NCBI GenBank assembly: GCA_022822005.1
Contig: JAJECO010000068.1
Location: 1-62,768, forward strand
DNA: 62,768 bases
Source of the DNA: Candidatus Poribacteria bacterium
GTDB taxonomy: Bacteria; Poribacteria; WGA-4E; PCPOR2b
Reading direction: 5' to 3'
Position numbers and translations under genes: made by a program. Positions 18,439-36,369 of the stretch are shown here, piece by piece (positions within the stretch are counted from its first letter, which is position 1; every line of letters starts with the position of its first letter). The notes beneath the pieces were generated by a model. That model made no database searches and was not told the origin of the DNA. It was given only the letters and a program-made list of their open reading frames with translations.

Positions 18439-19500
18439 TCAGTCAAATACGACAGCAATCTTATCTGTTTTGGCAACCGATTGACAGGATAGAATTTCGC
18501 CTTGTTCAATTTCGGTGTCTTCTAACGCCATTCTCGCGCGCATATGAACCTCCCCAGCCATTAGCTTCGTTCGGCAAGCTCCGCAGATACCCGATTGACA
18601 TGAGTAAGGAGGGTTGAGATCCACCGCGATCATCGCTTGTAGGAGTGTTTGCCCGCGCGCAACGTGGACTTCATGGCTCTGCCCATCGAGGATTACTGTT
18701 GTTTTCGCCGCAATGCCTTCAAACGAATTGTCCATCTCAACAACGCCACCAAAATTCTCGCTATGAATGCGCGTCACGGGTACATCAATGTCCTGTAGTG
18801 CTGATTTTACCGACGTATTCATGTTGCCGGGACCACACACATAATATTGCGCATCATGTGCGTAAGGGGGATGTTCTTCAATGAATGACCAAATCGCGTC
18901 TGTATCTATCCGACCGGTACGCCATGGGCGAAAACTAGTGAGCACAGATCGGTTGGACAGAACATGGCGTACTACACAACGCTCCGGATATTGTTCTACT
19001 AGGTCTGCGAGCGTTTGCTGAAAGATAATGCTGTTTTCACTCGTATTGCCATATAAGAGGTAGGCATAGCTGTATGGTTCGGCAAGTAGTACGCTCTGCA
19101 GCATTGAGAATAACGGCGTGATGCCGCTGCCAGCTCCAAAAAAGTAGTGCGTACGTCGTTTTTTGCCATCCGGGTCTAAACAGAACCCGCCAAAAGGCGA
19201 CATTATCTCGATTTCATCTCCCGCCCTGACATTATTATTGATGTAATTTGACACTAGCCCACCTAGCACACGCTTGACGGTGATGCACAACTTTTCGCCC
19301 GAAACAGGGGATGATGAAACGGTATAGGAGCGCCGAACTTCTTCACCATTTAATTCAAAACGCAGGGTAATATGTTGACCAGCCCGCCACCGAAAAGTAT
19401 CCTTCAGGATATTAGGTACGTCAAACACGACGGTCTTTGCCGTGGCAATTGGATTATAGGCATCAAGAACCCGAAGTGCATGAAATGTTTGTGTGGTCAT
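18439..19500 (-). CDS. Ferredoxin-NADP reductase-type oxygenase reductase with C-terminal 2Fe-2S domain
   Basis: A 353-aa electron-transfer protein in the order FAD, NAD(P), plant-type ferredoxin. The flavin motif RRSYTVSSS lies at 56-64 and the nucleotide-binding GAGSGITP at 122-129. A YYVCGPGNM strand follows, and the 2Fe-2S ligands are Cys301, Cys306, Cys309 and Cys339 (spacing C-x4-C-x2-C-x29-C). The arrangement matches reductases of two-component Rieske monooxygenases such as GbcB or CntB/YeaX. Its ATG overlaps the stop of the oxygenase gene (ATGA), so the two are translationally coupled. It takes electrons from NAD(P)H and passes them to the Rieske centre. Confidence 0.92.
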   Translation of the reverse strand: MTTQTFHALRVLDAYNPIATAKTVVFDVPNILKDTFRWRAGQHITLRFELNGEEVRRSYTVSSSPVSGEKLCITVKRVLGGLVSNYINNNVRAGDEIEIMSPFGGFCLDPDGKKRRTHYFFGAGSGITPLFSMLQSVLLAEPYSYAYLLYGNTSENSIIFQQTLADLVEQYPERCVVRHVLSNRSVLTSFRPWRTGRIDTDAIWSFIEEHPPYAHDAQYYVCGPGNMNTSVKSALQDIDVPVTRIHSENFGGVVEMDNSFEGIAAKTTVILDGQSHEVHVARGQTLLQAMIAVDLNPPYSCQSGICGACRTKLMAGEVHMRARMALEDTEIEQGEILSCQSVAKTDKIAVVFD

Positions 19501-20663
19501 TTTGCTTGTTGGTTCCCCTCAATAAAAGCAAGGACAATTTGTTGGTGCTCTTTCACCGGGCTTTCACCGGATACAGCTGTCGCGCCGATCTCGAAATAGG
19601 GACTCTGCAGCGATTTCTGCTGTTGTTCACAGACATAGACATCCTCAGCCATGAAATCACCAGTTGCTAGTGAATCGGTTTTGGCATCGCCCTCATATTT
19701 GGCAGAGGTATTCCGCGTCCAGAAAGAGCCTGAACGCCATGACTGCATCGCAAACTCCCAGCTTGAGACGTTCTTGACCTTTGTGCGGGTTTCTACACGT
19801 GTCGAGTCAGGAGCAAGTGGCATAACGTAGTAGATTGACCAACTTGACTCGTTTTCAGCAAGCCCAAGTCCAGGAAACAGCATCGGCACCCATGCACCAA
19901 TCTTGTTTCGCGGTATTTCGTCGAGCAGCGGCATCATCACGTTCTTTTCGATATCTTCTCTGTACCATTGGGAGAGTGGTTCCCAAAATACGTAGTGAGG
20001 TCCAACAAAACCGAACTTGGCTTTAGCATGGTCATACATATGCAACGTGCCGGAGTGTAGATGGGAAAGGTGGTAGACGTCAATATAGTTCTCAACCACA
20101 ATTTTCCAATTCGCTTTTATTTCGGTGGTGGTCCTCACCTGTGGATATTCAACAAGTTTATCCACCTGATGCGGACCAAGCTCGGGCTCAATTTCGCCAA
20201 ACCATTCCATAATCGAGCCAGCGTTAGGGTCGGGGTGTACCCAGAGCATCCCGCGCCAGCGGTCAACCGAAGCCGGTTTGAGACCGAGACAAGATTTATC
20301 CAAGTCAGGAAATTCTCTATCCTCCTCTGGTACAGAGATCAGGTTCCCTTCCAAGTCATAAGTCCAGTCGTGGTAAGGGCAGGTAATGGCTTTCTGAGAC
20401 TTGCCAACCGCGCGCAGTAGTTGTGTCCCACGGTGACGACAAATGTTGTGAAACGCCCGCAGACGTCGGTCGCGTCCCATAACGATAAAGATGTTATTCA
20501 ACCCTGCCTGAACGGAAATATACTGCCCCGGCTCGACGATATCTTCTGCAAACCCCGCATAGTGCCAAACCTTTGAAAAAATCAGTTCCTGCTCGCGCTC
20601 AAACCATTCTTGTGAAGTATACGCTTCCACGGGAAGCAGATGCATCATACGTATTGGGGACAT
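19497..20663 (-). CDS. Rieske non-heme iron monooxygenase, alpha subunit (GbcA/CntA/choline-monooxygenase-like)
   Basis: A 388-aa oxygenase. The Rieske cluster ligands are Cys75-x-His77 (CRHRG) and Cys95-x2-His98 (CPYHDW). The catalytic iron site is NWKIVVENYIDVYHLSHLH with bridging Asp195, His198 and His203, and Asp341 in the EDVYVCEQQQ segment is the likely carboxylate ligand. This organisation matches enzymes that demethylate or cleave quaternary ammonium compounds such as glycine betaine, carnitine or choline. The substrate itself is inferred only from family resemblance. It is coupled to its reductase by a 4-bp overlap. A 92-aa membrane protein gene lies 80 bp upstream on the same strand. 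Confidence 0.9.
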   Translation of the reverse strand: MSPIRMMHLLPVEAYTSQEWFEREQELIFSKVWHYAGFAEDIVEPGQYISVQAGLNNIFIVMGRDRRLRAFHNICRHRGTQLLRAVGKSQKAITCPYHDWTYDLEGNLISVPEEDREFPDLDKSCLGLKPASVDRWRGMLWVHPDPNAGSIMEWFGEIEPELGPHQVDKLVEYPQVRTTTEIKANWKIVVENYIDVYHLSHLHSGTLHMYDHAKAKFGFVGPHYVFWEPLSQWYREDIEKNVMMPLLDEIPRNKIGAWVPMLFPGLGLAENESSWSIYYVMPLAPDSTRVETRTKVKNVSSWEFAMQSWRSGSFWTRNTSAKYEGDAKTDSLATGDFMAEDVYVCEQQQKSLQSPYFEIGATAVSGESPVKEHQQIVLAFIEGNQQAK

Positions 20664-22649: not shown

Positions 22650-23243
22650 TTATTTTGATGCCAGATGATACACTTCAATTTCGCGGACCTGTGCCCATGC
22701 CGGTTGGATAACGCGGAAGTGGGGATAATACGCCCCAGCGAGTGTGGTTCTGCGATCTACCACTTTGTCCCCGGGCGATAGCATCACCTTTGTAACAACC
22801 TTATCATCCACGGTGCGAGAAACATTGATACGGATAGTGTTCGTCCGGCAATTTAGGCGATCGATGACAATTTCTGAGGGTGCACGCTCCGTACCAATAT
22901 CCCGTAATTGACGCACAGAGTGGACGGTCCTCCACTCGAATCTGTCAAGATCCCAGTAGTCCACATGAAACCAGAATAGATTTCCATTATGGATGATAAT
23001 CTTCCGGACAGGTTTGACCTCTGGGAACCGTAACGTAAAGATCCGTTCATTTGTCGCTGCTACCGCTGCAACGGTATCTAGCTTCCCGTCGTTGAGTGCC
23101 GGATGATTCGCTTTTGACCCGTAGCTTGCCAGCCCGAAGTTCTCACTCCATGAATTGGTTAACAGGGAAGACCAAACACAGCCGGATAAACCGATACAAG
23201 TAGCAAACAAGAGCGAAATTCCGATGTATTTTCGCACATCCAT
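22650..23243 (-). CDS. Discoidin (F5/8 type C)-like lipoprotein, 197 aa
   Basis: The start at 23243 places a short signal sequence (YIGISLLFATCIGLSGC) at the N-terminus with lipobox LSGC. GGGAGG and GGTAGAAGG lie just upstream. After the Cys, NFGLASYGSKANHPALNDGKLDT followed by alternating beta-strand segments (FTLRFPEVKPVRKIIIHNG, then IRINVS) resembles the galactose-binding-like jelly roll of F5/8 type C domains. I infer a carbohydrate- or surface-binding lipoprotein, but the domain assignment is by pattern only. It is last in a same-strand cluster after two EutN-type proteins and a rhomboid protease, 41 bp downstream of the latter. Confidence 0.6.
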   Translation of the reverse strand: MDVRKYIGISLLFATCIGLSGCVWSSLLTNSWSENFGLASYGSKANHPALNDGKLDTVAAVAATNERIFTLRFPEVKPVRKIIIHNGNLFWFHVDYWDLDRFEWRTVHSVRQLRDIGTERAPSEIVIDRLNCRTNTIRINVSRTVDDKVVTKVMLSPGDKVVDRRTTLAGAYYPHFRVIQPAWAQVREIEVYHLASK

Positions 23244-23284
23244 CCTTCTACCTCCCAAGTCTATTTTACAAATTGCAGCCATTG

Positions 23285-24043
23285 TTATCGAAGATAAGGA
23301 CGAATTCTATACACTTCTTGTTTAGGGCGAAACCACATCCGTTGGAATTTTCCTATCAGGATCATTCCCACACCGAATCCACCGACATGCGCCGCCCAGG
23401 CGACAGATGCACCTTGAAACGAAAAATAGACATTGATCAATTGGATTGCGATCCAAGGGACCAGCAGAACGACTGCGGGTACGGAGATAATATAGATAAG
23501 GAGAAAACATCGAACCCGCGCCTTGGGACACGCAATAAAGTGCGCACCCATCACGCCAGCGATTGCGCCGCTGGCACCGATCAAGGGCAAATTAGAGTTG
23601 TAGTAAATTGTCACGTAACAGAGGGTCGCCAACACACCACATAACAGATAAAACAGGAGAAATTTCAAGCTGCCGATCATGCTTTCGAGGGTGGGACCGA
23701 AAGCTGAGAGGTACAGCATGTTCCCAATAATGTGGATAAATCCTCCCTGTACAATGTGAACATCGTGTAAGAATAGGGAGGTAAGGAGTGTTCTGTCAAA
23801 AAGGTTTGGAAGCGGTGGCAGAAAGGAATAGCGCTGGAGGATCTGGTTGGGGATAACCCCCGACACCTCCACCAACGAGACCCCTTGATAGAGCGCGTAA
23901 AGCTGATATACAAAAACCACGAGATTTGTAACGATCAAGAATTGGACTGCACGCGGCTTGAAGGATCTCTGTGCCGGGGGCGCACTTGGGAGTGGAATGA
24001 ACAAAATGTCATATCCTTTCGACAAGTGAGCAGATAGACACAT
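23285..24043 (-). CDS. Rhomboid-family intramembrane serine protease, 252 aa
   Basis: A six-helix membrane protein with the rhomboid catalytic dyad: Ser158 in the GASGA motif (156-160) and His219 in AAHVGGFGVG. HIIGN (104-108) on TM2 supplies the oxyanion-region His and Asn. It belongs to the GlpG/YqgP-like group with GxxxGxxxG-type packing in the last helix. It is expected to cleave transmembrane helices of other inner-membrane proteins. A TTG at 24004 with AAAGGA upstream is a credible alternative start that would remove 13 residues. It sits between the EutN pair (53-bp gap) and the lipoprotein (41-bp gap) on the same strand, an unusual partnership. Confidence 0.9.
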   Translation of the reverse strand: MCLSAHLSKGYDILFIPLPSAPPAQRSFKPRAVQFLIVTNLVVFVYQLYALYQGVSLVEVSGVIPNQILQRYSFLPPLPNLFDRTLLTSLFLHDVHIVQGGFIHIIGNMLYLSAFGPTLESMIGSLKFLLFYLLCGVLATLCYVTIYYNSNLPLIGASGAIAGVMGAHFIACPKARVRCFLLIYIISVPAVVLLVPWIAIQLINVYFSFQGASVAWAAHVGGFGVGMILIGKFQRMWFRPKQEVYRIRPYLR

Positions 24044-24096
24044 CTGCGCTCACATCACACATTAACTACGACGCCCAACGGTTTCCGTTTCACGAA

Positions 24097-24375
24097 TCAT
24101 GTTTCACTCGACACATCGAACCTGTCGATGATTCCCATTACCAACTCCCGTATGGGAGCTGTTTCGAGTTCAAAGACCTCCTGGGCAACACCCGGACCTG
24201 CCCCAACAAGGACAATATCGTTTTCTCCTGCTCCAACATAATCAACAGCGATTGTCGGCGTTCGCACCAACTTTGATTTCAAACTCAACGGTTGGACGAG
24301 CAGGAGGGTGCGATTTTCATAGGCGGGATGCTTAATGACCGAAACTACTTTTCCAATAACCTTTGCGATGTACAT
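24097..24375 (-). CDS. EutN/CcmL-type microcompartment vertex protein, copy 2
   Basis: A 92-aa single-domain EutN/CcmL (BMC-P) protein. It starts MYIAKVIGKVVSVIKHP and continues with a LLLVQPL strand, an AVDYVGAGENDIVLVGAGPGV hairpin, and a terminal VMGIIDRFDV strand. All are conserved positions of the pentameric oligonucleotide-binding-like fold that caps microcompartment vertices. The ATG at 24375 shares one base with the upstream TGA (TGATG) and has GGAGG upstream, so translation is coupled. An in-frame GTG one codon earlier is possible. The glycine-rich loop is conserved. No BMC-H hexamer gene is present in the window. Confidence 0.9.
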   Translation of the reverse strand: MYIAKVIGKVVSVIKHPAYENRTLLLVQPLSLKSKLVRTPTIAVDYVGAGENDIVLVGAGPGVAQEVFELETAPIRELVMGIIDRFDVSSET

Positions 24376-24659
24376 CACTCCTCCGCTCTCTCGGTCACAG
24401 TGATGGAATCAACAATCCCAACTACAGCGACATCAACAGGCATTGCGCGTTCCGCCGATACAAACGCGGCGTCTCCGCCGGTGACCACGTAGACCAGTTC
24501 GCCATACCCAGCAGCCCCCTGAATATCAACAGCGGTGATTGGATCGCCGATAGATTCTCCGTCTGCGTCGAGCGGCTGTACTACGAGGAGACGATAACCG
24601 ACCAAGCTTGGATCTTTTCGAGTTGCGACGATGGTACCGAGGACCTTTGCAATATCCAT
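24375..24659 (-). CDS. EutN/CcmL-type microcompartment vertex protein, copy 1
   Basis: A 94-aa EutN/CcmL protein: MDIAKVLGTIVATRKDP, then YRLLVVQPLD, AVDIQGAAGYGELVYVVTGGDA and a terminal VAVVGIVDSI strand. It is clearly paralogous to the next gene but diverged, which suggests that the two copies form distinct or mixed pentamers. Only these two shell proteins are in view; any hexameric shell or encapsulated enzyme genes must lie elsewhere. A ribosome-binding site is not obvious. The gene heads a same-strand cluster with its paralogue, the rhomboid protease and the lipoprotein. Confidence 0.9.
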   Translation of the reverse strand: MDIAKVLGTIVATRKDPSLVGYRLLVVQPLDADGESIGDPITAVDIQGAAGYGELVYVVTGGDAAFVSAERAMPVDVAVVGIVDSITVTERAEE

Positions 24660-25148: not shown

Positions 25149-26603
25149 TTAACGCTTTTGAATCCCATACTCTTCCATTTTAGAGTGAAGGGTATTCCGG
25201 TTAATTCCAAGGATCTCTGCGGCTTTCCTGCGATTCCAGCCAGTGCGCTGAAGGATAAGCTCAAAGAGCGGTTTTTCGACGGCAACGCGGATCTCGGCGT
25301 GAAGTTCCCCAGCATCTGCCCCCGACTCGACAAATTCATCCACACGTTCCGACATTAACACAGCGAGACGACTCTCAAATCCGCCCGGAGGCTTCGTAGG
25401 AGACGTAGTTGGGTTTCCAGACAGTTCTGGGAAATGTTCGGGGAGGAGGACCTGACCGGCGCACATTACGAGTGCACGCTTTAAGCTGTTCTCCAGTTCA
25501 CGAACGTTTCCGGGCCAATCGTAAGCCATTAGCATCTTGAAAGCTTCCGGCGAGACTGCACCTTTGGGTTGGTCGTAATCCTGAGCAAAACGGGACACAA
25601 AGAAATTTACCAGATCGGGGATATCTTCCTTGCGTTCACGTAACGGCGGTAAAAAGATTGGCACTACATTGAGCCGATAAAACAGATCTTCCCGAAATGT
25701 TCCCTCCTGAATGGCTAAATCGAGGCGTCGATTTGTGGCGGCAACTACCCGCACATCGACCTTGCGAATCTCATTTGATCCGATCGGCTCAACTTCCCGT
25801 TCTTGAAGGACACGTAACAGTTTCATCTGCACTTCTATCGGCAATTCGCCCACTTCGTCGAGAAAAATCGTTCCTCGGTCTGCCTGTTCAAATTTCCCCT
25901 GTCGCGCTGTGTCGGCACCCGTATACGCTCCTTTAACATGCCCAAAGAGTGCACTTTCGATTAAGTCGGAGGGAATCGCGCTGCAATCCACCACTACGAA
26001 CTCCCCTTCCGCTCTGGTGCTGTTTTGGTGGATCGCCTTTGCAATTGACTCTTTACCGGTGCCGCTCTCACCCATAATCAGCACTGTTTCGTCGCTGATC
26101 GCGGCGCGCCCGATGGTAAGGTAAATGGCGTGCATCGCATCGCTTTCTCCAACAATCTGAGTACCTATCTCATCGCCGTTTTTTGATGGGACGGTATCTG
26201 GAAGCGGGGCATCTTCTGCGGTTGCGGCTTTTGATTGCTCGGCCGCATATACCGCACGCGCGACCAGAGGGGCGATCTCCTTGAGATCAAAAGGCTTGGT
26301 CATATAGTCATAGGCATGACGTTTTGCAGCTTCAATGGCTATTTGCGTTGTACCGTGAGCGGTGATGATTATGATCGATGCGGTTTTATTGATCTCCCGA
26401 AGCTCCTCGATCAGATCTAATCCGTTGACATCAGGCATAAAGATATCGAGGAAGATGGTGTCGATCGTTTCTGAGCGGAGCAGATTGACTGTCTCTTTCC
26501 CGTTCCGCGCAGAAAATGTGCGATACCCCTCCTTCTGAAGGGCTTTCTCCAGCACAAAACGGATGCTATCGTCGTCGTCAGCGATGAGAATTGCGTGCGC
26601 CAT
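25149..26603 (-). CDS. NtrC-family sigma-54-dependent response regulator, 484 aa
   Basis: Three domains in canonical order. The receiver (1-120) has phospho-acceptor Asp53 in FLDIFMPD and acidic pocket DDDD near 9-12. The sigma-54 AAA+ domain (about 150-380) has Walker A GESGTGKE (178-185), the sigma-54 contact loop GAYTGA (225-230), Walker B FLDE (247-250) and FREDLFYRL. A Fis-type helix-turn-helix lies at 450-484 (RRKAAEILGINRNTLHSKM). It activates promoters recognised by sigma-54 RNA polymerase when phosphorylated. The cognate kinase is almost certainly the upstream gene, 164 bp away. The target genes are not identified; no clear -24/-12 promoter was found nearby. Confidence 0.95.
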   Translation of the reverse strand: MAHAILIADDDDSIRFVLEKALQKEGYRTFSARNGKETVNLLRSETIDTIFLDIFMPDVNGLDLIEELREINKTASIIIITAHGTTQIAIEAAKRHAYDYMTKPFDLKEIAPLVARAVYAAEQSKAATAEDAPLPDTVPSKNGDEIGTQIVGESDAMHAIYLTIGRAAISDETVLIMGESGTGKESIAKAIHQNSTRAEGEFVVVDCSAIPSDLIESALFGHVKGAYTGADTARQGKFEQADRGTIFLDEVGELPIEVQMKLLRVLQEREVEPIGSNEIRKVDVRVVAATNRRLDLAIQEGTFREDLFYRLNVVPIFLPPLRERKEDIPDLVNFFVSRFAQDYDQPKGAVSPEAFKMLMAYDWPGNVRELENSLKRALVMCAGQVLLPEHFPELSGNPTTSPTKPPGGFESRLAVLMSERVDEFVESGADAGELHAEIRVAVEKPLFELILQRTGWNRRKAAEILGINRNTLHSKMEEYGIQKR

Positions 26604-26767: not shown

Positions 26768-28294
26768 TCAAACCGACAGCGTAATGATGAAGGTTGCGCC
26801 TTGAGGTTCTGTTACGTCAACTTCGATGGTGCCGCCGTGCTCCTCAACGATTTGTTGGCTGATCGCCAGTCCGAGCCCCGTTCCTTTCTGCTTCGTTGTG
26901 TAGAAGGGATCGAACAGGCGCGAAGCAACGTCCGACGGTATACCACGCCCGGTGTCCTTGATATAGATCTGCACCGCCTGATTCGTAGCATTATAGACAG
27001 TTCGAACCGTTAGGATGCCACCATCCTCCATCGACTCGATTGCGTTACGAAACAGATTGAGCAACACCTGTGTCATTCCGTCGCCATTCATAGACACGGG
27101 TGGACAGTCGTCAGCAAAGTACTTCTCAACACAGATATTGTCCCGAACCAATTCAGACTGACAGATCGAAAGGCTATTGTCGATTAAGTCGCCGATGTCG
27201 CTCGGTCTGACACCCGCCGTGCGTGGGTTGCCTGACACGAGTAGCTGTTCAACCACCCGATTCAGCCGATCAACCTCTTTGATGATGACTTGGATGTATT
27301 CCTGAATCTCCGAATTCGATTCGTCTTCCAGTTGGAGCAGTTGTGCAGCACCGCGGATTCCGCCCAGTGGGTTTCTTACTTCATGAGCCACCGTTGTCGC
27401 GAGTTTGCCGAGGGTTGCCAGACGCTCGGATTGCACAAGCGAATCAATCATCTGCTGAATTTTCACACGTTGTGCTACGATCGCAGCGATAATTGTCAAG
27501 ATACGAATATCGTCCTCAATCGAAAATTCGTCCGACGCCTTATCGATTGTCAGTGTGCCAACAATTTTTTCATCAACAACCACGGGAACGCACCAGAAAG
27601 CTATCGGGTCTTTAGATTGCACCGACTTCGCATCTGGGAACTCAATCTGATCGAGAGGCGTCCGACTGTGGGGAACACCTATGGGCTGCCCAGATTGGAG
27701 GACCTGTTGCTGAATAAGATCGATTTGACTATCCGTTCCACGTCGGAGTTCCGCTTCGGTCAAGCCGAAAACTGCCTCGACTTTCTTGACTAACTCATTA
27801 GCTTCCCATATCCTCAACGTCCCTCGATACACACCCATCCGGTCCGCAAGGGTTTTGATAATCTTCTGGAACAGTTCATCTAACTCCAAGGCGGTGTCCG
27901 TTGTATCACCGATTTCAAAAAGCGTCGAAAGATCGCGCACCCGTTTTTCAAGATCAGTATTGGATTGATCTATCTGTTGAAGCTGCGCTTCGGTAGTTGC
28001 GCGTTGAGCCTGGAAAAGCTGGATAGTACGGACAATGAAATACGCAATGAGTGGGTATAGGATCGCAACCACACCCAGATGAATCTGCTCATAGTAAAGC
28101 GCGGCATGTATCCAGTTGGCTAATGTCGTGCAGGCAAGGAGCAGATATTGCCCACGACGATTGTCGTATATACCGGCGAGGATTATAACCCCGTAGTACA
28201 GATGCGATGCAACCCCGTAGTTCTGCGGGCTGTCCAGACCGTAGACAAATAGGTTAATGAGCAGAACGACAAGGATCAGGAAAAAAGTTAGCAT
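26768..28294 (-). CDS. Membrane-bound sensor histidine kinase with GAF domain (NtrB-like), 508 aa
   Basis: The N-terminal 1-95 has about three to four hydrophobic helices. A short coiled-coil linker (about 95-130) leads to a GAF domain (about 132-280). The HisKA helix follows with His304 in VAHEVRNPLGG, and then the ATPase domain with an N box (NLFRNAIESM), G1 (IKDTGRGIP), F (LFDPFYTTK) and G2 (GTGLGLAI). It probably senses a cytoplasmic or membrane signal and phosphorylates the NtrC-type regulator encoded next. It lies 62 bp after hisH on the same strand, so it may be transcribed with the biosynthetic genes. Confidence 0.94.
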   Translation of the reverse strand: MLTFFLILVVLLINLFVYGLDSPQNYGVASHLYYGVIILAGIYDNRRGQYLLLACTTLANWIHAALYYEQIHLGVVAILYPLIAYFIVRTIQLFQAQRATTEAQLQQIDQSNTDLEKRVRDLSTLFEIGDTTDTALELDELFQKIIKTLADRMGVYRGTLRIWEANELVKKVEAVFGLTEAELRRGTDSQIDLIQQQVLQSGQPIGVPHSRTPLDQIEFPDAKSVQSKDPIAFWCVPVVVDEKIVGTLTIDKASDEFSIEDDIRILTIIAAIVAQRVKIQQMIDSLVQSERLATLGKLATTVAHEVRNPLGGIRGAAQLLQLEDESNSEIQEYIQVIIKEVDRLNRVVEQLLVSGNPRTAGVRPSDIGDLIDNSLSICQSELVRDNICVEKYFADDCPPVSMNGDGMTQVLLNLFRNAIESMEDGGILTVRTVYNATNQAVQIYIKDTGRGIPSDVASRLFDPFYTTKQKGTGLGLAISQQIVEEHGGTIEVDVTEPQGATFIITLSV

Positions 28295-28356: not shown

Positions 28357-28965
28357 TTACTGCGCCTCGCCTAAGAAATTATCCAGCATCTTGAGTCCTA
28401 TGCGTCCGCTCTTCTCCAGATGGAACTGTGTGGCGATTAGGTTCTGATGGGCGACAACACTGGAAAACTCAACACCATAGGTGGTTTTGCCGACGATGTA
28501 GGAATCATCGCGTGGGATAGGGTAGTATGAGTTGACAAAATAGAAATGGGCGGGATTCGGCACATCCTGAAAAATAGGGTGTGCCCCTGTCTGATAAACC
28601 TCATTCCACCCAATCTGCGGCACTTTACGGGTCGGAGTGGCGTCATATTTTTTTACGACGCCGGGTAAGATGCCGAGACACTCGGTATTTTCCTCCTCGC
28701 TGTGTTCAAACAGAATCTGGATACCGATACAGATTCCCAACATCGGTTTGTCCGACTCGTAGACCTTCCACAAAATCTCTGCAAGTCCCGCCGTATTCAG
28801 GTTATCCATTGTTGCCCGCGCCGCACCCACGCCGGGAAAGATGACTTTCTCTGCGCCCAAAATGGCCTGGGAGTCAGCGGTAATTTTTCCGTCGTAGCCT
28901 AAGTATTTGACAGCGCGTTCAACGCTTGTCAGGTTGCCCGCGCCGTAGTCGATGATTGCAATCAT
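28357..28965 (-). CDS. hisH: Imidazole glycerol phosphate synthase, glutamine amidotransferase subunit HisH
   Basis: A 202-aa class I glutamine amidotransferase. It starts IAIIDYGAGNLTSVERA, has the oxyanion strand PGVGA near 44-48, nucleophile Cys79 in MLGICIGIQ, and His182/Glu184 in QFHLEKSG. The usual motif is FHPEKS, so Leu replaces Pro. With HisF it makes IGP and AICAR in histidine biosynthesis; HisH supplies ammonia from glutamine. No hisF or other his gene is in the window, so the pathway is dispersed or lies beyond. It sits between the restriction-modification genes and the sensor kinase on the same strand. Confidence 0.95.
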   Translation of the reverse strand: MIAIIDYGAGNLTSVERAVKYLGYDGKITADSQAILGAEKVIFPGVGAARATMDNLNTAGLAEILWKVYESDKPMLGICIGIQILFEHSEEENTECLGILPGVVKKYDATPTRKVPQIGWNEVYQTGAHPIFQDVPNPAHFYFVNSYYPIPRDDSYIVGKTTYGVEFSSVVAHQNLIATQFHLEKSGRIGLKMLDNFLGEAQ

Positions 28966-29078: not shown

Positions 29079-29972
29079 TCAGATACTACTCTGATTTGAC
29101 TCGAAAAGCTCTATCTGTTTAGGAGGTGCTGCGGTTCTTAATTCAGGCCGTTCCCAAATGGCTTCCAAGTCCGGCGTACACGCATAGTCTGCGAATAGGC
29201 TTGAAATATCATCTGCTTTTCTTTGTTCAGCAAGCCTTTCTCGGATGATTTCGATATTGACCTTATCAAGTTCAACCCCAATCGATTCCCGCCCCAACTG
29301 CTCCGCAACGACTAACGTTGTCCCTGAACCCGCAAATGGATCTAATACAACATCACCGGGATTTGTTGAAGAGAGGATTATCCGAAGGAGAAGTTGAATC
29401 GGTGTCTGTTGCTTGTGCAAGCGATTTCCCTCTGAATCGCGGAGCGCCTCGTCGCCAGCAAAATAACCCGATGTCAACTCACGAATATCGTCCCATACAT
29501 CGGTGAGGAACATGCCATTTTCGCGTTCATATTTGTACCCTACAGGGAGTGGCGGATTGATTCGCAGACGGTGAAAGACCTGTGGACGCTCCCCCTTCGT
29601 TGCAAACGCAATGATCTGATAGTGCTTACCAAAGCGATGTATTCCGGGCACAGCGGACGTTTTCTTTTTCCAAATAATTAGGTTTTGGAACGTCCAGCCA
29701 GATTCGCGTAGACACCGTAGCACGGATTCAGTCTTTTTCTCGCGTTGCATAAAATAGATTGCACCGCCCGAAGCGGTTCGGTGATAAACCTTTGTGCATA
29801 CCTCGCCCATCCACTGCCAATATTGCGTTTCAGGCAAGTTATCATCCCACTCGTTATAGCCTTTATCTTGATTGAAAGGTGGATCGAGAAAGGTGAGGTC
29901 AACACCCCCCAAATCAGTGTTTTGTCGGTCTAATAGCGAAGCACAATCTCCATGCAGCACAGTTGCTTTCAT
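29079..29972 (-). CDS. DNA methyltransferase, beta class, DPPF motif (probable N6-adenine)
   Basis: A 297-aa restriction-modification methylase. Catalytic motif IV is DPPF (30-33) and SAM motif I is DPFAGSGTT (211-219), in the IV-then-I order of beta-class N6A/N4C enzymes. DPPF/DPPY points to adenine methylation. An HKQQTP segment (about 186-191) is the usual motif X neighbourhood before motif I. It is last in a three-gene set after the putative nuclease (11-bp gap), with GGATAGAG before its ATG. Its likely role is to protect one strand of an asymmetric site, or the same site as the other methylase. The recognition sequence cannot be read. Confidence 0.9.
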   Translation of the reverse strand: MKATVLHGDCASLLDRQNTDLGGVDLTFLDPPFNQDKGYNEWDDNLPETQYWQWMGEVCTKVYHRTASGGAIYFMQREKKTESVLRCLRESGWTFQNLIIWKKKTSAVPGIHRFGKHYQIIAFATKGERPQVFHRLRINPPLPVGYKYERENGMFLTDVWDDIRELTSGYFAGDEALRDSEGNRLHKQQTPIQLLLRIILSSTNPGDVVLDPFAGSGTTLVVAEQLGRESIGVELDKVNIEIIRERLAEQRKADDISSLFADYACTPDLEAIWERPELRTAAPPKQIELFESNQSSI

Positions 29973-29983
29973 ACTCTATCCTA

Positions 29984-31045
29984 TTACGTGAAAAACTCAT
30001 CATTGATCATAATCTGAAAGCCATTGGTTCCGGCTTCCCGCTTTAGATTCGTAAGACGGTTTTTCTGCGAACGACTAAGCGAGTTCAAACTGAACCCCTC
30101 ACCCGTCGTCAATTTCAGAACCGGCACGGGGTTGTAATCTCTCCCATCAATTTTCGGATTTTCCAAGTTCGTAAATAGTATCATCTTCACCAAACCATCC
30201 TTTATGTCGCCGAGGGAGGGCAGTTCAACTTTGTTCGTATGCTTCGCTTCAATGAGATAAATTTCATCCTCATGGATTTCAACTTCATCGCAGGTCAAAT
30301 AATAATTGCCCCCAAGATAGTTTTTGATGGTTAACCTCCCTTTGATTCCCGCTATATGCTCTTTGGGCTGTGTAGTAACGCTTTCTCTTGCCTGTGCCTG
30401 CTTTGCCAAGTCCCTTGATAGTGCCTTAAATTCTGCCTGACCTTCACGAAGTATATCGATTCGACGTTCTGCCGACGCCCAAGAGTGCATGTCCACGTTT
30501 AGTTTTTCGGAGATAATTGAATAAGCATTCAATGCCTGTGAACCAACTTCGCCGATACCTTCGACTTGTGTTATGTTCCAGTGTAGAGCATCAGATTGAT
30601 AAGACATCAATCGATCAATTTCGCTCATGATGTGCTCTGAATTAAACTTCTGCCCCGTGATTTTATGCGTGTATCTTGTGCTTTTTGAAGCATCAGCATA
30701 GTAGCTAATTATCACGTACACGCCCAACAAACTCATTAAAGAAATAGTATCCCATTGCAGAAAGTCTCGATCACCTTGTTTACCCTCATCCTTTAAGATT
30801 GGGATTATCGTTGCTTTCTTACCTGAAAAATTTAGCGTATCATAGACTCTTGCATACGGGTAAGACCGCGTCCTTTTTGGTGACACCCAAGAACTTAAAG
30901 CAATCTGCTTGGTTGGATCAATCTGCAGAATAAAGGTTGTTTTTTCTGAAAGTGTTGCGTCAAAATCTTTATAGCTGAAAGATTTAAGTTTGCTGCATAG
31001 AAATGGGGTATATTTTACTCCAGTGATTCTAGCGAAAATATCCAT
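29984..31045 (-). CDS. Putative type II restriction endonuclease (PD-(D/E)xK), 353 aa
   Basis: I do not recognise the full-length family. Residues 230-290 have the shape of a PD-(D/E)xK core: a strand with Asp253-Glu254, then Glu267-Ala268-Lys269 in IYLIEAKHT, followed by an amphipathic helix with DIKDGLVKMILF. The N-terminal 200 residues (KFNSEHIMSEIDRLMSY and others) may bind DNA. Its position between two DNA methylases, 22 and 11 bp from them on the same strand, strongly suggests the cleavage subunit. The gene is visibly more AT-rich than its neighbours, as often seen for acquired restriction genes. An alternative is an accessory or nicking nuclease. Confidence 0.75.
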   Translation of the reverse strand: MDIFARITGVKYTPFLCSKLKSFSYKDFDATLSEKTTFILQIDPTKQIALSSWVSPKRTRSYPYARVYDTLNFSGKKATIIPILKDEGKQGDRDFLQWDTISLMSLLGVYVIISYYADASKSTRYTHKITGQKFNSEHIMSEIDRLMSYQSDALHWNITQVEGIGEVGSQALNAYSIISEKLNVDMHSWASAERRIDILREGQAEFKALSRDLAKQAQARESVTTQPKEHIAGIKGRLTIKNYLGGNYYLTCDEVEIHEDEIYLIEAKHTNKVELPSLGDIKDGLVKMILFTNLENPKIDGRDYNPVPVLKLTTGEGFSLNSLSRSQKNRLTNLKREAGTNGFQIMINDEFFT

Positions 31046-31067
31046 CGGGTTCTCGTTGCACCTCTAA

Positions 31068-31931
31068 CTAAGGCTGAAATAATCGCCCCTGATCAACAAT
31101 TGGACGAAGTTGATCAACCGCATAGTCGATGTATTTTTGTTGCGTTTCAATGCCGACATGTGCTCTATCCAATTTTTCAGCAGCACAATTTGTCTGCCCG
31201 CTTCCGGCAAAGATGTCAATCACTGAATCCCCTTTATAAGAGTAAAACTGGATGACCCGTTCTGCGAGTTCTAACGGAAATGGACACGGATGCAGATTCT
31301 CTTGAGGAGCTAACGGACGGATTTTCCAGACGTTTTTGCTCTTCTCGCCTTGATAATCCTTCAAGTCGATTTCATTTTTTGTTTTCTCTTCATCACTTCT
31401 ATTCCAATAAATGTTGTTCTGACTTTTCTTATCGGCAGGTTTCTGGAAGACGAACACATATTCGGCAACCAGACTGGGATAGTAATATCCGGGATAGGGA
31501 TGCTGCAACAATACCCCTGATCTCCTATCCCTCGCAACTGGCTTTTCCCAGATAATATCCTCCTTGAATTGCCATCCAATTTCCTCAAGCCAACTGACAA
31601 AATGAAACGGGAGCGCCGTGCGCATACCATTCCATAAGACCGGGGCTATATTTACCACGTTGTGTCCCCCTGGCTTCGTAATTCGCAGCAACGCCTTGAA
31701 CCGATTCTCTAGAAAAAGCCGATATTCCTCGTAGGATATATCTTCTCGCTCCCATCGTGCTTTGGTGCCGTGCAGTTTTTCAATATGTTCCTCGTAATTG
31801 ATTGCGTTTAGGTAGGGAGGCGAGGTGAACCCAAGCATGAAATGGTTGTCGGGGAAATTATCCATGACTGAGAGACAATCTCCTTTGACAATTCGCCCAT
31901 TACCAATTTTGATTTCTTCTAAGGCTGCCAT
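31068..31931 (-). CDS. DNA methyltransferase, beta class, SPPY motif (probable N4-cytosine)
   Basis: A 287-aa methylase with catalytic TSPPY (36-40), typical of m4C enzymes, and SAM motif FAGSGQT (241-247), again in beta-class order. LHPCPFPLELAERVI (about 213-227) is the conserved helix before motif I. It starts 27 bp after ribH and is followed after 22 bp by the putative nuclease, so the order is m4C methylase, nuclease, m6A methylase. Two methylases of different chemistry commonly accompany nucleases with asymmetric targets, one for each strand. That is an inference here. Confidence 0.9.
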   Translation of the reverse strand: MAALEEIKIGNGRIVKGDCLSVMDNFPDNHFMLGFTSPPYLNAINYEEHIEKLHGTKARWEREDISYEEYRLFLENRFKALLRITKPGGHNVVNIAPVLWNGMRTALPFHFVSWLEEIGWQFKEDIIWEKPVARDRRSGVLLQHPYPGYYYPSLVAEYVFVFQKPADKKSQNNIYWNRSDEEKTKNEIDLKDYQGEKSKNVWKIRPLAPQENLHPCPFPLELAERVIQFYSYKGDSVIDIFAGSGQTNCAAEKLDRAHVGIETQQKYIDYAVDQLRPIVDQGRLFQP

Positions 31932-31958: not shown

Positions 31959-32429
31959 CTATTCGTCAATCTGCTGATATAGGTTCGCCATTTCGATCGC
32001 TGTAACGGCCGCTTCGGCTCCTTTATTCCCCGCCTTGGTCCCAGCACGTTCGATTGCCTGCTCGATGGTATCGGTGGTGATAACGCCATAAATCACGGGG
32101 ATCCCTGTATTGAGAGAGACCTGCGCGATCCCTTTCGCACTTTCATTGGCGACATAATCGAAGTGGGGGGTCGCGCCACGAATGACCGCACCGATACAGA
32201 TAACTGCATCGTAGCGTCCCTTTTCGGCCAGGCGCTTCGCCGTAGTGGGAATCTCGAACGAGCCGGGCGTCCAACAGATGTCCACATCGTCCCCGTCCAC
32301 ACCGTGACGCTTGAGTGCATCAAGCGCTCCATCCAATAACTTGGTGGTAATAAAGCTATTAAACCGACTGATCACGATTCCAATTTTCAGATTCGTGCCG
32401 ATAAGATTGCCTTCGTAAATATTGGGCAT
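31959..32429 (-). CDS. ribH: 6,7-dimethyl-8-ribityllumazine synthase RibH
   Basis: A 156-aa lumazine synthase. It has SRFNSFIT near 21-28, GSFEIP near 56-61, and [14 protein letters not shown] (about 81-94) with the catalytic His. The terminal [17 protein letters not shown] helix is also present. It condenses the ribityl-aminouracil with dihydroxybutanone phosphate in the penultimate riboflavin step and normally assembles as pentamers or icosahedra. GGAGG lies 4-5 bases before the ATG. It is third in a ribE-ribBA-ribH operon with gaps of 19 and 20 bp. Confidence 0.97.
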
Positions 32430-32449
32430 TGTCCTCCGGTGCTGGTCGC

Positions 32450-33724
32450 TTAGCCTTGAACCATTAAGCCGTCATAACCGTGCACCGTCTCCTCCTTCTC
32501 GTCGTTGATAGTATCCAGCAAGAGATGTCCTAACTTCGTTTTTTTTGTCTCCAGATAGTGACGATTGAATTCGTGCGGTTTGATTTGGAGCGGAATCCGC
32601 TCGACAATCTCCAAGTCATGCCCCTCCAGACCGCTGACTTTACGCGGATTGTTTGTCAACAAACGCATCTTCTGAACACCAAGGTCCGTCAAAATCTGGG
32701 CACCTACCCCATAATCCCGCAAATCTGGAGGGAAGCCGAGTCGTTCATTCGCTTCTACGGTATCGAGCCCCTCGCTGTCTTGTAATCTATAGGCACGAAT
32801 TTTGTTTCCGAGTCCCATACCCCGTCCTTCTTGGCGCATGTAGACCAAGACACCCCGTTCCTCCTTCTGGATAAGTTGCATCGCCTTCTCTAACTGCTCA
32901 CCACAGTCGCAGCGCAGCGATCCGAACACATCTCCGGTGAAACACTGTGAGTGCATCCGCACCAATACCGGTTCACCGTCCGAAATGTCCCCTTTGATCA
33001 AGGCAATGTGGGTTTTCTCGTCATCCGCGCTTTGGTACGCATGGAGTCTGAAGTATCCGTGCTGCGTCTGGAGGGCAGCCTCCGCAACCCGCTTGATAAG
33101 CGTCTCCGTTTGCCGTCGATAGGCAATCAGGTCCGCAATGGTGATGAATTTTAATCCGTATTTCTGGGCGAATTCAGAGAGCTGGGGGAGGCGTGCCATC
33201 GTGCCATCTTCGTTCAAGATCTCACAGAGCACTCCCGCTGGATAGAGGCCCGCCAGACGCGCCAGATCAACTGTCGCCTCTGTATGACCGGCACGCCGTA
33301 AGACGCCGCCTTCCTCTGCCTGCAACGGGAAGATATGACCGGGACGGACGAAATCCTCGGCTGTCGTCTCGGGATGGACGAATTTTTGAATTGTATGTGC
33401 CCGCTCGTAGGCGGAGATCCCGGTGGTCACATCGCTGGCATCAATTGTTACCGTAAACGCCGTATGGAGTTGGGCGGTATTTTCTGAGACCATCAACGGG
33501 AGATTCAGTTGTGACAAACGTTCCGCAGTCGCGGGGAGACATATCATGCCACGACCGTATTTCGCCATGAAATTGATCGCCTCCGGTGTGGCTTTTTCGG
33601 CTGCCATGATTAAATCGCCTTCGTTTTCTCGATCTGGATCGTCGGAAACGATAATCATCTCCCCATTCCGAATCGCTTCAATAGCTTCTGGGATTGTGTT
33701 AAACCTCATAGGCAATGCCTTCAT
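32450..33724 (-). CDS. ribBA: Bifunctional DHBP synthase / GTP cyclohydrolase II RibBA
   Basis: A 424-aa fusion. The N-terminal half (about 1-205) is 3,4-dihydroxy-2-butanone-4-phosphate synthase with [16 protein letters not shown] near 28-43 and [15 protein letters not shown] near 145-159. The C-terminal half is GTP cyclohydrolase II, with zinc-site [20 protein letters not shown] (near 258-277), [13 protein letters not shown] and LLTNNPRKV. The two enzymes supply both building blocks of riboflavin. A second in-frame ATG (33709, MRFNT) is an alternative start. No ribD is in the window, and no FMN riboswitch was seen before the operon. Confidence 0.96.
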
Positions 33725-33743
33725 TCAGTCCAAATTTTTATCT

Positions 33744-34388
33744 CTAAATATACCCGTGTTTTGCTAAAAAGTCCATGTCAATTGATGTGCCCTCAGCCAA
33801 AGGGTAGGTCAATAGTCGTTCGATATAACGGCCTAACAGATCCACCTCTATGTTCACGCGGGCACCAACGCGTTTAGCTCCTAACGTTGTGATCTGCTTG
33901 GTATGAGGGATGAGCGCGACCTCAAATCCGTCATCAAACAAATTTGAGATTGTCAGACTGACACCATCAACACAGACTGAGCCCTTATGCACTACATACC
34001 GCATTGCCTCTTGAGAGATCGAAACGCGCATTAAAGAGGAGGGACCTTCATCCTGCCAACCGGTAATAGTCCCAACCTCGTCGACATGACCCAACACGAG
34101 ATGCCCACCCAACCGGTCTGCCAAGCGCAATGCGCTCTCAAGATTGACCGAATCGCCCGGTTTGAGGGCACCTAATGTTGTGCGTCGTAACGTCTCAGCC
34201 GAAACATCGGCTGTGAAACTGCCGTGCGTCAGTTCGGTGACTGTCAGACAGACGCCATCTATTGCAATGCTATCACCGACAACCCCGTCCGATAATATCT
34301 CTGCGGCTGCGATAGTGAGAGTTCCCGCCTGTGAGCCGTGTTGAATTTCCTTCACGCTTCCTAGCTCTGCAACAATTCCTGTGAACAT
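33744..34388 (-). CDS. ribE: Riboflavin synthase, alpha chain RibE
   Basis: A 214-aa protein made of two lumazine-binding barrels. The first starts MFTGIVAELGSVKEI and the second HLVLGHVDEVGTI, each with an S/G-VAIDGVCLT-type motif (SIAIDGVCLTV, SVCVDGVSLTI). It disproportionates two lumazines into riboflavin. The frame is open for 36 more codons upstream, but the family start MFTGIV is placed at 34388. It leads the ribE-ribBA-ribH operon. The 5' region shows no RFN-element core, so FMN control by riboswitch is not supported. Confidence 0.95.
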   Translation of the reverse strand: MFTGIVAELGSVKEIQHGSQAGTLTIAAAEILSDGVVGDSIAIDGVCLTVTELTHGSFTADVSAETLRRTTLGALKPGDSVNLESALRLADRLGGHLVLGHVDEVGTITGWQDEGPSSLMRVSISQEAMRYVVHKGSVCVDGVSLTISNLFDDGFEVALIPHTKQITTLGAKRVGARVNIEVDLLGRYIERLLTYPLAEGTSIDMDFLAKHGYI

Positions 34389-34731
34389 AAATGTCTGCTT
34401 TGGTTCGAATCTTGGTATTAAAATCGGTCCCCAGATATCCTTATCGGGGCTGTGGGTCCCGGTCAGATGAATTATTATAGCATGACAGACAGGCACTGTA
34501 AACCAAAAACCTAAAAGCCTCGGTAGCTCGTGATTAAGAACCCCGACCTTTCATTCGGAAAGTGCCTTTCTGGACACAGCCAACCACAGAAAAGCGTTGA
34601 CTGCTACCCGGATTTTGTAGTATGCTGATCGCCATAGAAGTCCTTAGCGGACCTGAAATGTCGCGCCCGCACAAAGCAAATAAGCATACAGCTTGCCTGC
34701 ACACATCTCCGATCACGAAGGGGAAAAATCG
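34389..34731. other. Divergent intergenic region, no gene
   Basis: This 343-bp region lies between divergent ribE and the LRR-protein gene. It contains GGTATTAAAATCGG and a GATATCCTTATCGGGG near 34434. No RNA gene, riboswitch or persuasive open frame is seen. The GAAGGGG at 34727-side end serves the LRR gene. Confidence 0.45.
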
Positions 34732-36369
34732 ATGAAAACACAACATTTTCGTGTCGCTTTTTTCCTGTTAATTTATGCGTCGATTCCACTGACAGCAGGG
34801 GCACAAGTGGTGGCAATCCCCGACCCCAACCTCCGCACTGCCATTGAAACCGCTCTCGGAAAGTCATCAGGTGGCCCGATTACTGTGGTAGAGATGGAAA
34901 CTTTGACCTACCTTGAAGGAGACGACGCTAATATAAGTGATTTGACTGGGCTTGAGTTTGCAATCAACCTGACATGGCTAAGCCTTGGGGACAACTCTAT
35001 ACGGGATATTTCGGCGGTGGCAGGATTGACTAACCTGACAGTGCTATATCTTTGGAACAACGCCCTATCAGACCTTTCGCCTCTGACAGAATTGATCAAT
35101 CTGATAGAGCTAGGTCTTTCGGACAATTCAATATCGGATATTGCGCCTTTAGCGGACTTGACTAACCTGAAATGGCTATATCTTAGCAATAACCCTATAT
35201 CGGATATTGCGCCGCTGACAGGGTTGTCCAACCTAACGGATCTGGATCTTGACGAGAACTCTATATCAGACATTCCGCCTTTGACAGGGTTGACCAGCCT
35301 GATGTCGCTAGATCTTTCGGACAATTCGATATCGGATATTGCGCCGCTGACGGACCTAATTAACATAGGATGGCTGTCTCTTAGGAATAACCCAATATCA
35401 GATATTGCACCGCTGATGGAATTAACCACACTGACAGGACTGTCTCTTAGGTACAACTCGGTATCGAATATTTCACCTTTGGGGAAGCTACGCAATTTAA
35501 CACAGTTATTTCTTACGAGCAACGCTATTTCGGACATTTCGCCGCTGACGGGATTGATTAACCTGATAGATCTAGATCTTGGGGGTAATTCAGTATCTGA
35601 TATTTCGCCGGTGGCAGGATTAATCAATCTGACAGAACTGGATCTCCACGCGAACTCTATATCAGACATATCGCCTCTATCAGGATTGACTAATCTGAAA
35701 TGGCTGTGGCTTGGGGACAACGCGATATCAGACATCTCAGCCTTAGTAACAAACGCGGGGTTGGGAGACGATGACATAGTTGGGCTGCGAAGAAATACCC
35801 TGAACTACCCATCAATCAATACGTACATCCCAGCATTACAGGCGAGAGGTGTTAGCGTACGCGTTGACCACCGCACGGTTACTACAATCCTGAAAATCTC
35901 AGGCGACCAACGCGGTTTTCCTTCTGCGGTGCTGCCGAATCCGTTTGTTGCTGAAGTGCGAGACGAGTATGGTGCTGCCTATGAGGGGGTTCCAGTTACA
36001 TTCGCCATAACTGCCGGGAGCGGCACACTCAGTGTAACGCACGCAACAACCGATGGAACCGGCAGGGCGCGGAGCACGCTCACGCTGGGACCAGATTTGG
36101 GGATACACACGGTCTCTGCGACTGCTGCTGGATGGGTAATTGACGATCCTGTGCTTTTTAGCGTTATCTCCGATACGGAGCCTCCACCAGTTACAACGGA
36201 TGTCAACGGAGACGGGACTGTGAATATCCTCGACTTGGTTTTGGTTGCGTCTGCTTTCGGATCAGAAGGACCGAATCTGGAAACGGATGTTAACGGCGAT
36301 GAAGTGGTCGATGCGGTGGATTTGGTGTGGGTTGCAGACGCGTTTAGGGCTGCAGCAAACGCCCCCTGA
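34732..36369 (+). CDS. Secreted LRR protein with Ig-like and dockerin-like domains, 545 aa
   Basis: A signal peptide (ending near LTAGAQ) is followed by twelve regular 22-residue leucine-rich repeats (about 60-335) of the internalin/SDS22 type: L-x-N-L-x-x-L-x-L-x-x-N-x-[IV]-S-D-[IL]-x-P-L. A Big_1-like Ig domain covers about 370-475. The C-terminus (about 482-535) has two Ca-binding loops, DVNGDGTVNILDLV and DVNGDEVVDAVDLV, which match dockerin type I. The ATG at 34732 is supported by GAAGGGG upstream. It is probably exported and anchored by dockerin-cohesin-like contact, binding proteins or glycans through the LRR. The nearly identical repeats suggest recent expansion. Confidence 0.9.
   Translation: MKTQHFRVAFFLLIYASIPLTAGAQVVAIPDPNLRTAIETALGKSSGGPITVVEMETLTYLEGDDANISDLTGLEFAINLTWLSLGDNSIRDISAVAGLTNLTVLYLWNNALSDLSPLTELINLIELGLSDNSISDIAPLADLTNLKWLYLSNNPISDIAPLTGLSNLTDLDLDENSISDIPPLTGLTSLMSLDLSDNSISDIAPLTDLINIGWLSLRNNPISDIAPLMELTTLTGLSLRYNSVSNISPLGKLRNLTQLFLTSNAISDISPLTGLINLIDLDLGGNSVSDISPVAGLINLTELDLHANSISDISPLSGLTNLKWLWLGDNAISDISALVTNAGLGDDDIVGLRRNTLNYPSINTYIPALQARGVSVRVDHRTVTTILKISGDQRGFPSAVLPNPFVAEVRDEYGAAYEGVPVTFAITAGSGTLSVTHATTDGTGRARSTLTLGPDLGIHTVSATAAGWVIDDPVLFSVISDTEPPPVTTDVNGDGTVNILDLVLVASAFGSEGPNLETDVNGDEVVDAVDLVWVADAFRAAANAP

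Follow-up and report, generated by a model that had tools for sequence, protein, structure and literature searches.

A vertex-protein doublet and its surroundings

The window, 62,768 nucleotides of DNA corresponding to contig C59 of a 6.0-Mb Candidatus Poribacteria MAG (97.8% complete), carries two adjacent genes for EutN/CcmL-type vertex proteins (BMC-P) on its minus strand. The first, P1 (24375..24659), encodes 94 residues and matches PF03319 with an E value of 1.8e-24; the second, P2 (24097..24378 or 24097..24375, for 93 or 92 residues), matches with 2e-21. Both matches span the full profile (1-83), scoring 86.5 and 76.7 bits where the curated cut-off is 25 bits. At the junction, CGGAGGAGTGATGTACA, the TGA stop of P1 overlaps the start of P2 (TGATG), and a GGAGGA ribosome-binding site lies just 5′ of that start. 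Translation of P2 likely begins at the ATG at 24375 (92 aa) rather than at the GTG at 24378 (93 aa). The closest solved structures to both proteins are CcmL-type vertex proteins, the best PDB match of P1 being CcmL 4n8x (E 4.7e-15), and P1 is 88-95% identical to its counterparts in the four closest named relatives, all Candidatus Poribacteria MAGs. Judged by their families, P1 and P2 would form pentamers at shell vertices.

Two further genes follow on the same strand. A rhomboid intramembrane serine protease (23285..24043, minus strand; PF01694, E 2.2e-27) has its GxSG serine motif as GASG (residues 156-159) together with a late histidine, His219, and looks intact. Beyond it lies a 210-aa lipoprotein (22650..23282, minus strand) with the lipobox LSGC, whose cysteine is invariant in an alignment of 14 orthologues. 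A first, sequence-only reading of this DNA had described a translationally coupled doublet followed by a rhomboid protease and a lipoprotein, and the domain matches, lipobox and TGATG junction bear this out. Its label 'discoidin-like' for the lipoprotein is fair but weak. The protein gave no Pfam match and its AlphaFold model is of moderate quality (mean pLDDT 65.5); the PDB neighbours of that model are mostly galactose-binding-like, CBM32 or discoidin folds, the best with an E value of 3.8e-4, and suggest a probable domain of this type.

Upstream of P1 lies an NtrC-type sigma-54 response regulator (25149..26603, minus strand; PF00072, PF00158, PF02954), separated from it by 489 bp here and by 8-414 bp in relatives. 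It is paired with a GAF/HisKA histidine kinase (26768..28294, minus strand; Pfam matches), followed by a HisH-like glutamine amidotransferase (28357..28965, minus strand; PF00117) and the riboflavin genes ribH, ribBA and ribE (31959..34496, minus strand; Pfam matches). Synteny across the order of the window gives the conserved string ribE-ribBA-ribH-hisH-kinase-regulator-P1-P2-(rhomboid)-lipoprotein. Between hisH and ribH, two N6/N4 DNA methylases flank a 353-aa protein lacking a Pfam match (29079-31931), perhaps a restriction enzyme. This arrangement was seen in the genus of the window, and its middle gene is absent from some close relatives. On the other side of the locus, a Rieske ring-hydroxylase alpha subunit and a ferredoxin reductase make up a two-component oxygenase (18439-20663).

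Shell and core genes elsewhere in the genome

As the sequence-only reading had noted, no hexamer gene accompanies the doublet: contig C59 has no PF00936 (BMC-H) gene, and the only two in the genome are on contig C4. P1 and P2 stand side by side as the contig's sole shell genes, the arrangement by which Axen 2014 defines a satellite locus (only PF03319 or only PF00936 genes, contiguous). That study (PMC4207490) termed all Poribacterial loci satellite-like. The term suits the present genome because none of its loci holds BMC-H and BMC-P together.

In total, the genome has three PF03319 and two PF00936 genes in four shell loci. The third BMC-P gene, P3, lies on contig C95 with a histidine kinase and an NtrC-type regulator of its own downstream, such that two-component genes of this kind occur at both the P1 and P3 loci. 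Co-regulation of the scattered loci is unproven, since a search of the sequence upstream of P1 gave no sigma-54 consensus; weak sites in other places are probably due to chance. The two BMC-H genes on C4 are 25 kb apart. One adjoins PduL and a 253-aa Eut-like protein, which showed no significant homology to a protein encoded between two BMC-P genes in Pirellula. The other adjoins an aldehyde dehydrogenase (AldDH) of the BMC subfamily, scoring 562 bits against a cut-off of 403 bits. This enzyme begins MAEINESQIEEIVAQVIRNLQ, and its N-terminus, ESQIEEIVAQVIRNLQ, is a typical encapsulation peptide (p=0.016 in a hydrophobic-moment permutation test). In the same test the N-terminal peptide of PduL was weakly amphipathic (p=0.16). 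Both enzymes by which a metabolosome is recognized, an AldDH and a PduL with encapsulation peptides, are therefore encoded beside a BMC-H gene, the peptide being clear on the former and weak on the latter. A genome-wide search for hexamers and an aldehyde enzyme with an encapsulation peptide, as the sequence-only reading had proposed, recovered two BMC-H genes and one such enzyme, all on C4.

This inventory extends throughout the phylum. BMC-P genes are present in 84 of 85 genomes, nearly always as three copies, and most genomes of the order have exactly two BMC-H genes and one PduL. The exception, G002, lacks BMC-P, BMC-H and PduL together. Complete chromosomes carry the same set of three BMC-P and two BMC-H genes, with P1-P2, P3, BMC-H-PduL and BMC-H-AldDH mostly 0.3-3 Mb apart; in the genus of the window, some 25 kb separates one BMC-H locus from the other. 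As the dispersal is seen in complete chromosomes, it is not an assembly effect. The suggestion that the shell genes are simply dispersed thus proved correct. A full microcompartment operon elsewhere, combined with an unconserved gene order here, was the outcome named as counting against the sequence-only reading; no such operon turned up, and relatives keep P1 and P2 in the same order.

P2 orthologues were identified in 71 of the 73 genomes of the order, and P1 and P2 overlap or are at most 7 bp apart in 15 of 19 loci. This conservation is far beyond chance. Two genomes of family f4 (G039 and G048) keep P3, BMC-H and PduL but have none of P1, P2 and the linked lipoprotein, either because the assembly is broken at this locus or because the genes have truly been lost.

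Links between the doublet and the rest of the shell

Two lines of evidence connect P1 and P2 with the remaining shell genes. The first comes from G001, a deep relative that belongs to the phylum but not to the class of the window: one contig (C421) ends with P3-P1 and another (C173) begins with P1-P2. Their exact 119-base overlap joins P3-P1-P2 into one operon, which makes the doublet two thirds of a 'BMC-P triplet' that has been split and agrees with the triplet described in Sutter 2021 (PMC8217296). The second concerns family f5, where genes for a DUF5683 and a SnoaL-like protein directly follow P1 (at 6 and 14 bp in G004); within the order, the same two genes end the BMC-H-PduL cluster.

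A tree built from 95 columns, with poorly resolved deeper branches, separated three BMC-P groups that run through the phylum. P1 forms a conserved group of its own, the P2 proteins cluster with a planctomycete BMC-P (support 98/89), and P3 is placed with 5v74, the Haliangium vertex protein, which it also resembles in a structure-database match (E 8e-29). A second planctomycete BMC-P has too long a branch for placement against P1. The data indicate that the scattered layout arose by break-up of a vertex triplet.

The doublet could instead serve a second compartment, whose hexamers would be of a non-PF00936 type or missing from the assembly. Two of the three BMC-P genes do lie apart from all hexamers, in a genome with only two BMC-H genes. 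Against this, complete chromosomes show the same 3+2 inventory, P3-P1-P2 form one operon in G001, and BMC-P triplets within a single BMC type are a documented pattern (Sutter 2021, PMC8217296). We regard a second compartment as highly improbable.

Dissociation of the rhomboid and lipoprotein from the doublet

The rhomboid gene directly follows P2 in all 14 genomes of families f1-f3, so that the EutN-EutN-rhomboid arrangement does recur, as the sequence-only reading had asked. It does not recur throughout the order: the 59 genomes of f4 yielded no detectable rhomboid homologue, yet P2 and the lipoprotein persist in 57 of them. In f5, f6, f8 and f9 the rhomboid gene is unlinked to the doublet, and in G016 P1, P2 and rhomboid occur together in other surroundings. 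The lipoprotein is the firmer neighbour, lying within 1.5 kb downstream of P2 in 70 of 71 genomes of the order. In seven of eight f4 loci fetched, its start shares 4 bp with the P2 stop; in f5-f9 it is unlinked. G002 retains both rhomboid and lipoprotein in the absence of any BMC-P, BMC-H or PduL gene. None of these counts represents independent events, as much of the conservation within the order is explained by vertical descent.

The lipoprotein looks like an envelope protein because the next gene in the one f4 locus checked encodes a C25-type peptidase. That ORF matched Peptidase_C25 (gingipain-like), and its C-terminal domains are FlgD_ig/CHU_C-like, a hint that Poribacteria have type IX-like secretion. 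ORFs of roughly 1,700 aa follow the lipoprotein in L078 (11567-16672) and, similarly, in other f4 loci.

These patterns bear on a proposal of the sequence-only reading that P1 and P2 act outside any compartment, tied to the membrane via the rhomboid and lipoprotein. The proximity of the lipoprotein across the order, its overlap with P2 in most f4 loci fetched, the constancy of the rhomboid in f1-f3 and the preserved P1-P2-rhomboid group in G016 all favour such a role. So does the ring-shaped, membrane-associated antibody signal reported for the BMC-H of the BMC-H-PduL locus (Jahn 2016, PMC5087111). However, the rhomboid is missing throughout f4, the lipoprotein is unlinked in f5-f9, and G002 has both neighbours but no shell gene. 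Moreover, a protein with a lipobox would be exported, whereas the pentamers are cytosolic, and relatives place P1 next to P3 or beside genes from the BMC-H-PduL neighbourhood. We consider this proposal very unlikely, and a dedicated membrane role for the pentamers was rejected on the dissociation of these neighbours across families. The rhomboid is dispensable to the doublet, and it and the lipoprotein are mostly bystanders, operon passengers with functions of their own.

A narrower version would read the coupling of P1-P2 to the lipoprotein, kept across f4 without the rhomboid, as a real vertex-envelope link, with compartments built or anchored at the membrane. This would accord with the antibody signal that Jahn 2016 reported for BMC-H at the membrane, but we judge it very unlikely.

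A class II aldolase-family protein as candidate cargo

Six genomes of families f5-f8 have a class II aldolase gene ahead of BMC-H and AldDH; in four of them nothing intervenes, and in the other two a single ORF does. These aldolases end in a C-terminal helix resembling an encapsulation peptide. In loci L143, L144, L145, L146, L113 and L114 of class outgroups, aldolase, BMC-H and AldDH make up a compact metabolosome core without BMC-P.

Within the order, a divergent PF00596 protein of 346-376 aa is present in 71 of 73 genomes, mostly unlinked to the shell genes; in f3 its gene begins 9-12 bp downstream of P3. Examples lie on contig C93 of G000 (35139-36206, equivalent to L137 5140-6207), in L100 (8551-9597) and in L141 and L142. 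Compared with aldolases, the aligned Glu and two of three His positions are kept, and the third His is replaced by Gln; we take these positions to be active-site residues, as in FucA. The C-terminal sequence, SEEIVNCILREFQANQ, resembles the AldDH peptide, with amphipathicity that was not significant (p=0.10). The protein is a candidate for cargo because its relatives carry the C-terminal helix beside BMC-H and because the order's own version follows P3 in f3. It may perhaps be the signature enzyme of the compartment, a call that we regard as evenly balanced.

Propanediol use, as in a PDU metabolosome, has been proposed for Poribacteria (Jahn 2016, PMC5087111). A search of the 85 genomes for the B12 diol dehydratase large subunit (PF02286), run without a positive control, gave no match.

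A probable dispersed metabolosome

We conclude, with a probability of roughly 0.88, that a single dispersed, FRAG-like metabolosome draws two of its vertex proteins from this satellite-like locus. The compartment would be of a known kind, laid out in an unusual way, and the pentamers would not have been put to a new purpose. P1 and P2 would be two of three paralogous pentamers, the BMC-P triplet, that close the shell vertices. The other components would be supplied from elsewhere in the chromosome: P3 with a two-component system, one BMC-H with PduL, and the other with AldDH. Encapsulation peptides would draw in the cargo, AldDH would convert an aldehyde made inside the shell to acyl-CoA, and PduL would recycle the CoA. 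The aldehyde might come from the class II aldolase-family protein, the most weakly inferred step. Assembly, encapsulation and catalysis are assigned here by analogy with the respective protein families.

Some observations fit this metabolosome less well. To our knowledge, no shell has so far been isolated from Poribacteria. The ring-shaped BMC-H signal of Jahn 2016 is unlike free polyhedra, and the tight P2-lipoprotein coupling in f4 is left as hitch-hiking. The genes might also be scattered since the compartment no longer functions, as raised by Kamke 2014 (PMC3909097), and scattered loci with only two BMC-H genes would be in keeping with a relic. Yet every part is intact and has been kept throughout the order, and Jahn 2016 (PMC5087111) found high in situ transcription of the BMC-H-PduL locus, so that we hold a relic to be extremely improbable.

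Elements of this layout have been described before. Kamke 2014 (PMC3909097) reported for Poribacteria that the shell genes are scattered, that PF03319 genes outnumber PF00936 genes, and that a two-component system occurs in three of four groups. The group B defined there, with riboflavin genes as marker, resembles the present locus in having a PF03319 region with riboflavin biosynthesis genes apart from the PF00936 regions. As described, group B was drawn from partial single-cell genomes, whereas the string reported here is resolved over 85 genomes, complete chromosomes included. FRAG BMCs likewise have a BMC-P triplet and shell genes spread over several genomic sites; enzymes nearby are few, with some aldehyde dehydrogenases close by, and the compartment has no assigned substrate (Sutter 2021, PMC8217296). 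The main text of that study does not name Poribacteria. Its FRAG triplet consists of distinct clades (gray, orange and a third); Poribacteria have three separate BMC-P groups and, in G001, the P3-P1-P2 operon.

Other BMC types share single features. The satellite locus of HO BMC type I also keeps two BMC-P genes away from its main locus (Sutter 2021), and P3 resembles 5v74, but the HO pair travels with an aldolase and the Poribacterial pair with a kinase, regulator and lipoprotein. PVM and ACI BMCs parallel the class outgroups, where a class II aldolase with an encapsulation-peptide-like C-terminal helix lies near BMC-H and AldDH; similar parts occur in the planctomycete genome G085. In contrast to the order, where the aldolase-like protein is divergent and mostly unlinked, PVM and ACI operons are more compact.

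Group B (2014) and FRAG BMCs (2021) being already known, what is new is the relic of a vertex triplet and a candidate cargo of the class II aldolase family. Together, these results define a parts list for the Poribacterial compartment: three BMC-P, two BMC-H, AldDH and PduL. The class II aldolase-family candidate bears on the question of its substrate, which has been without a firm assignment since 2014.
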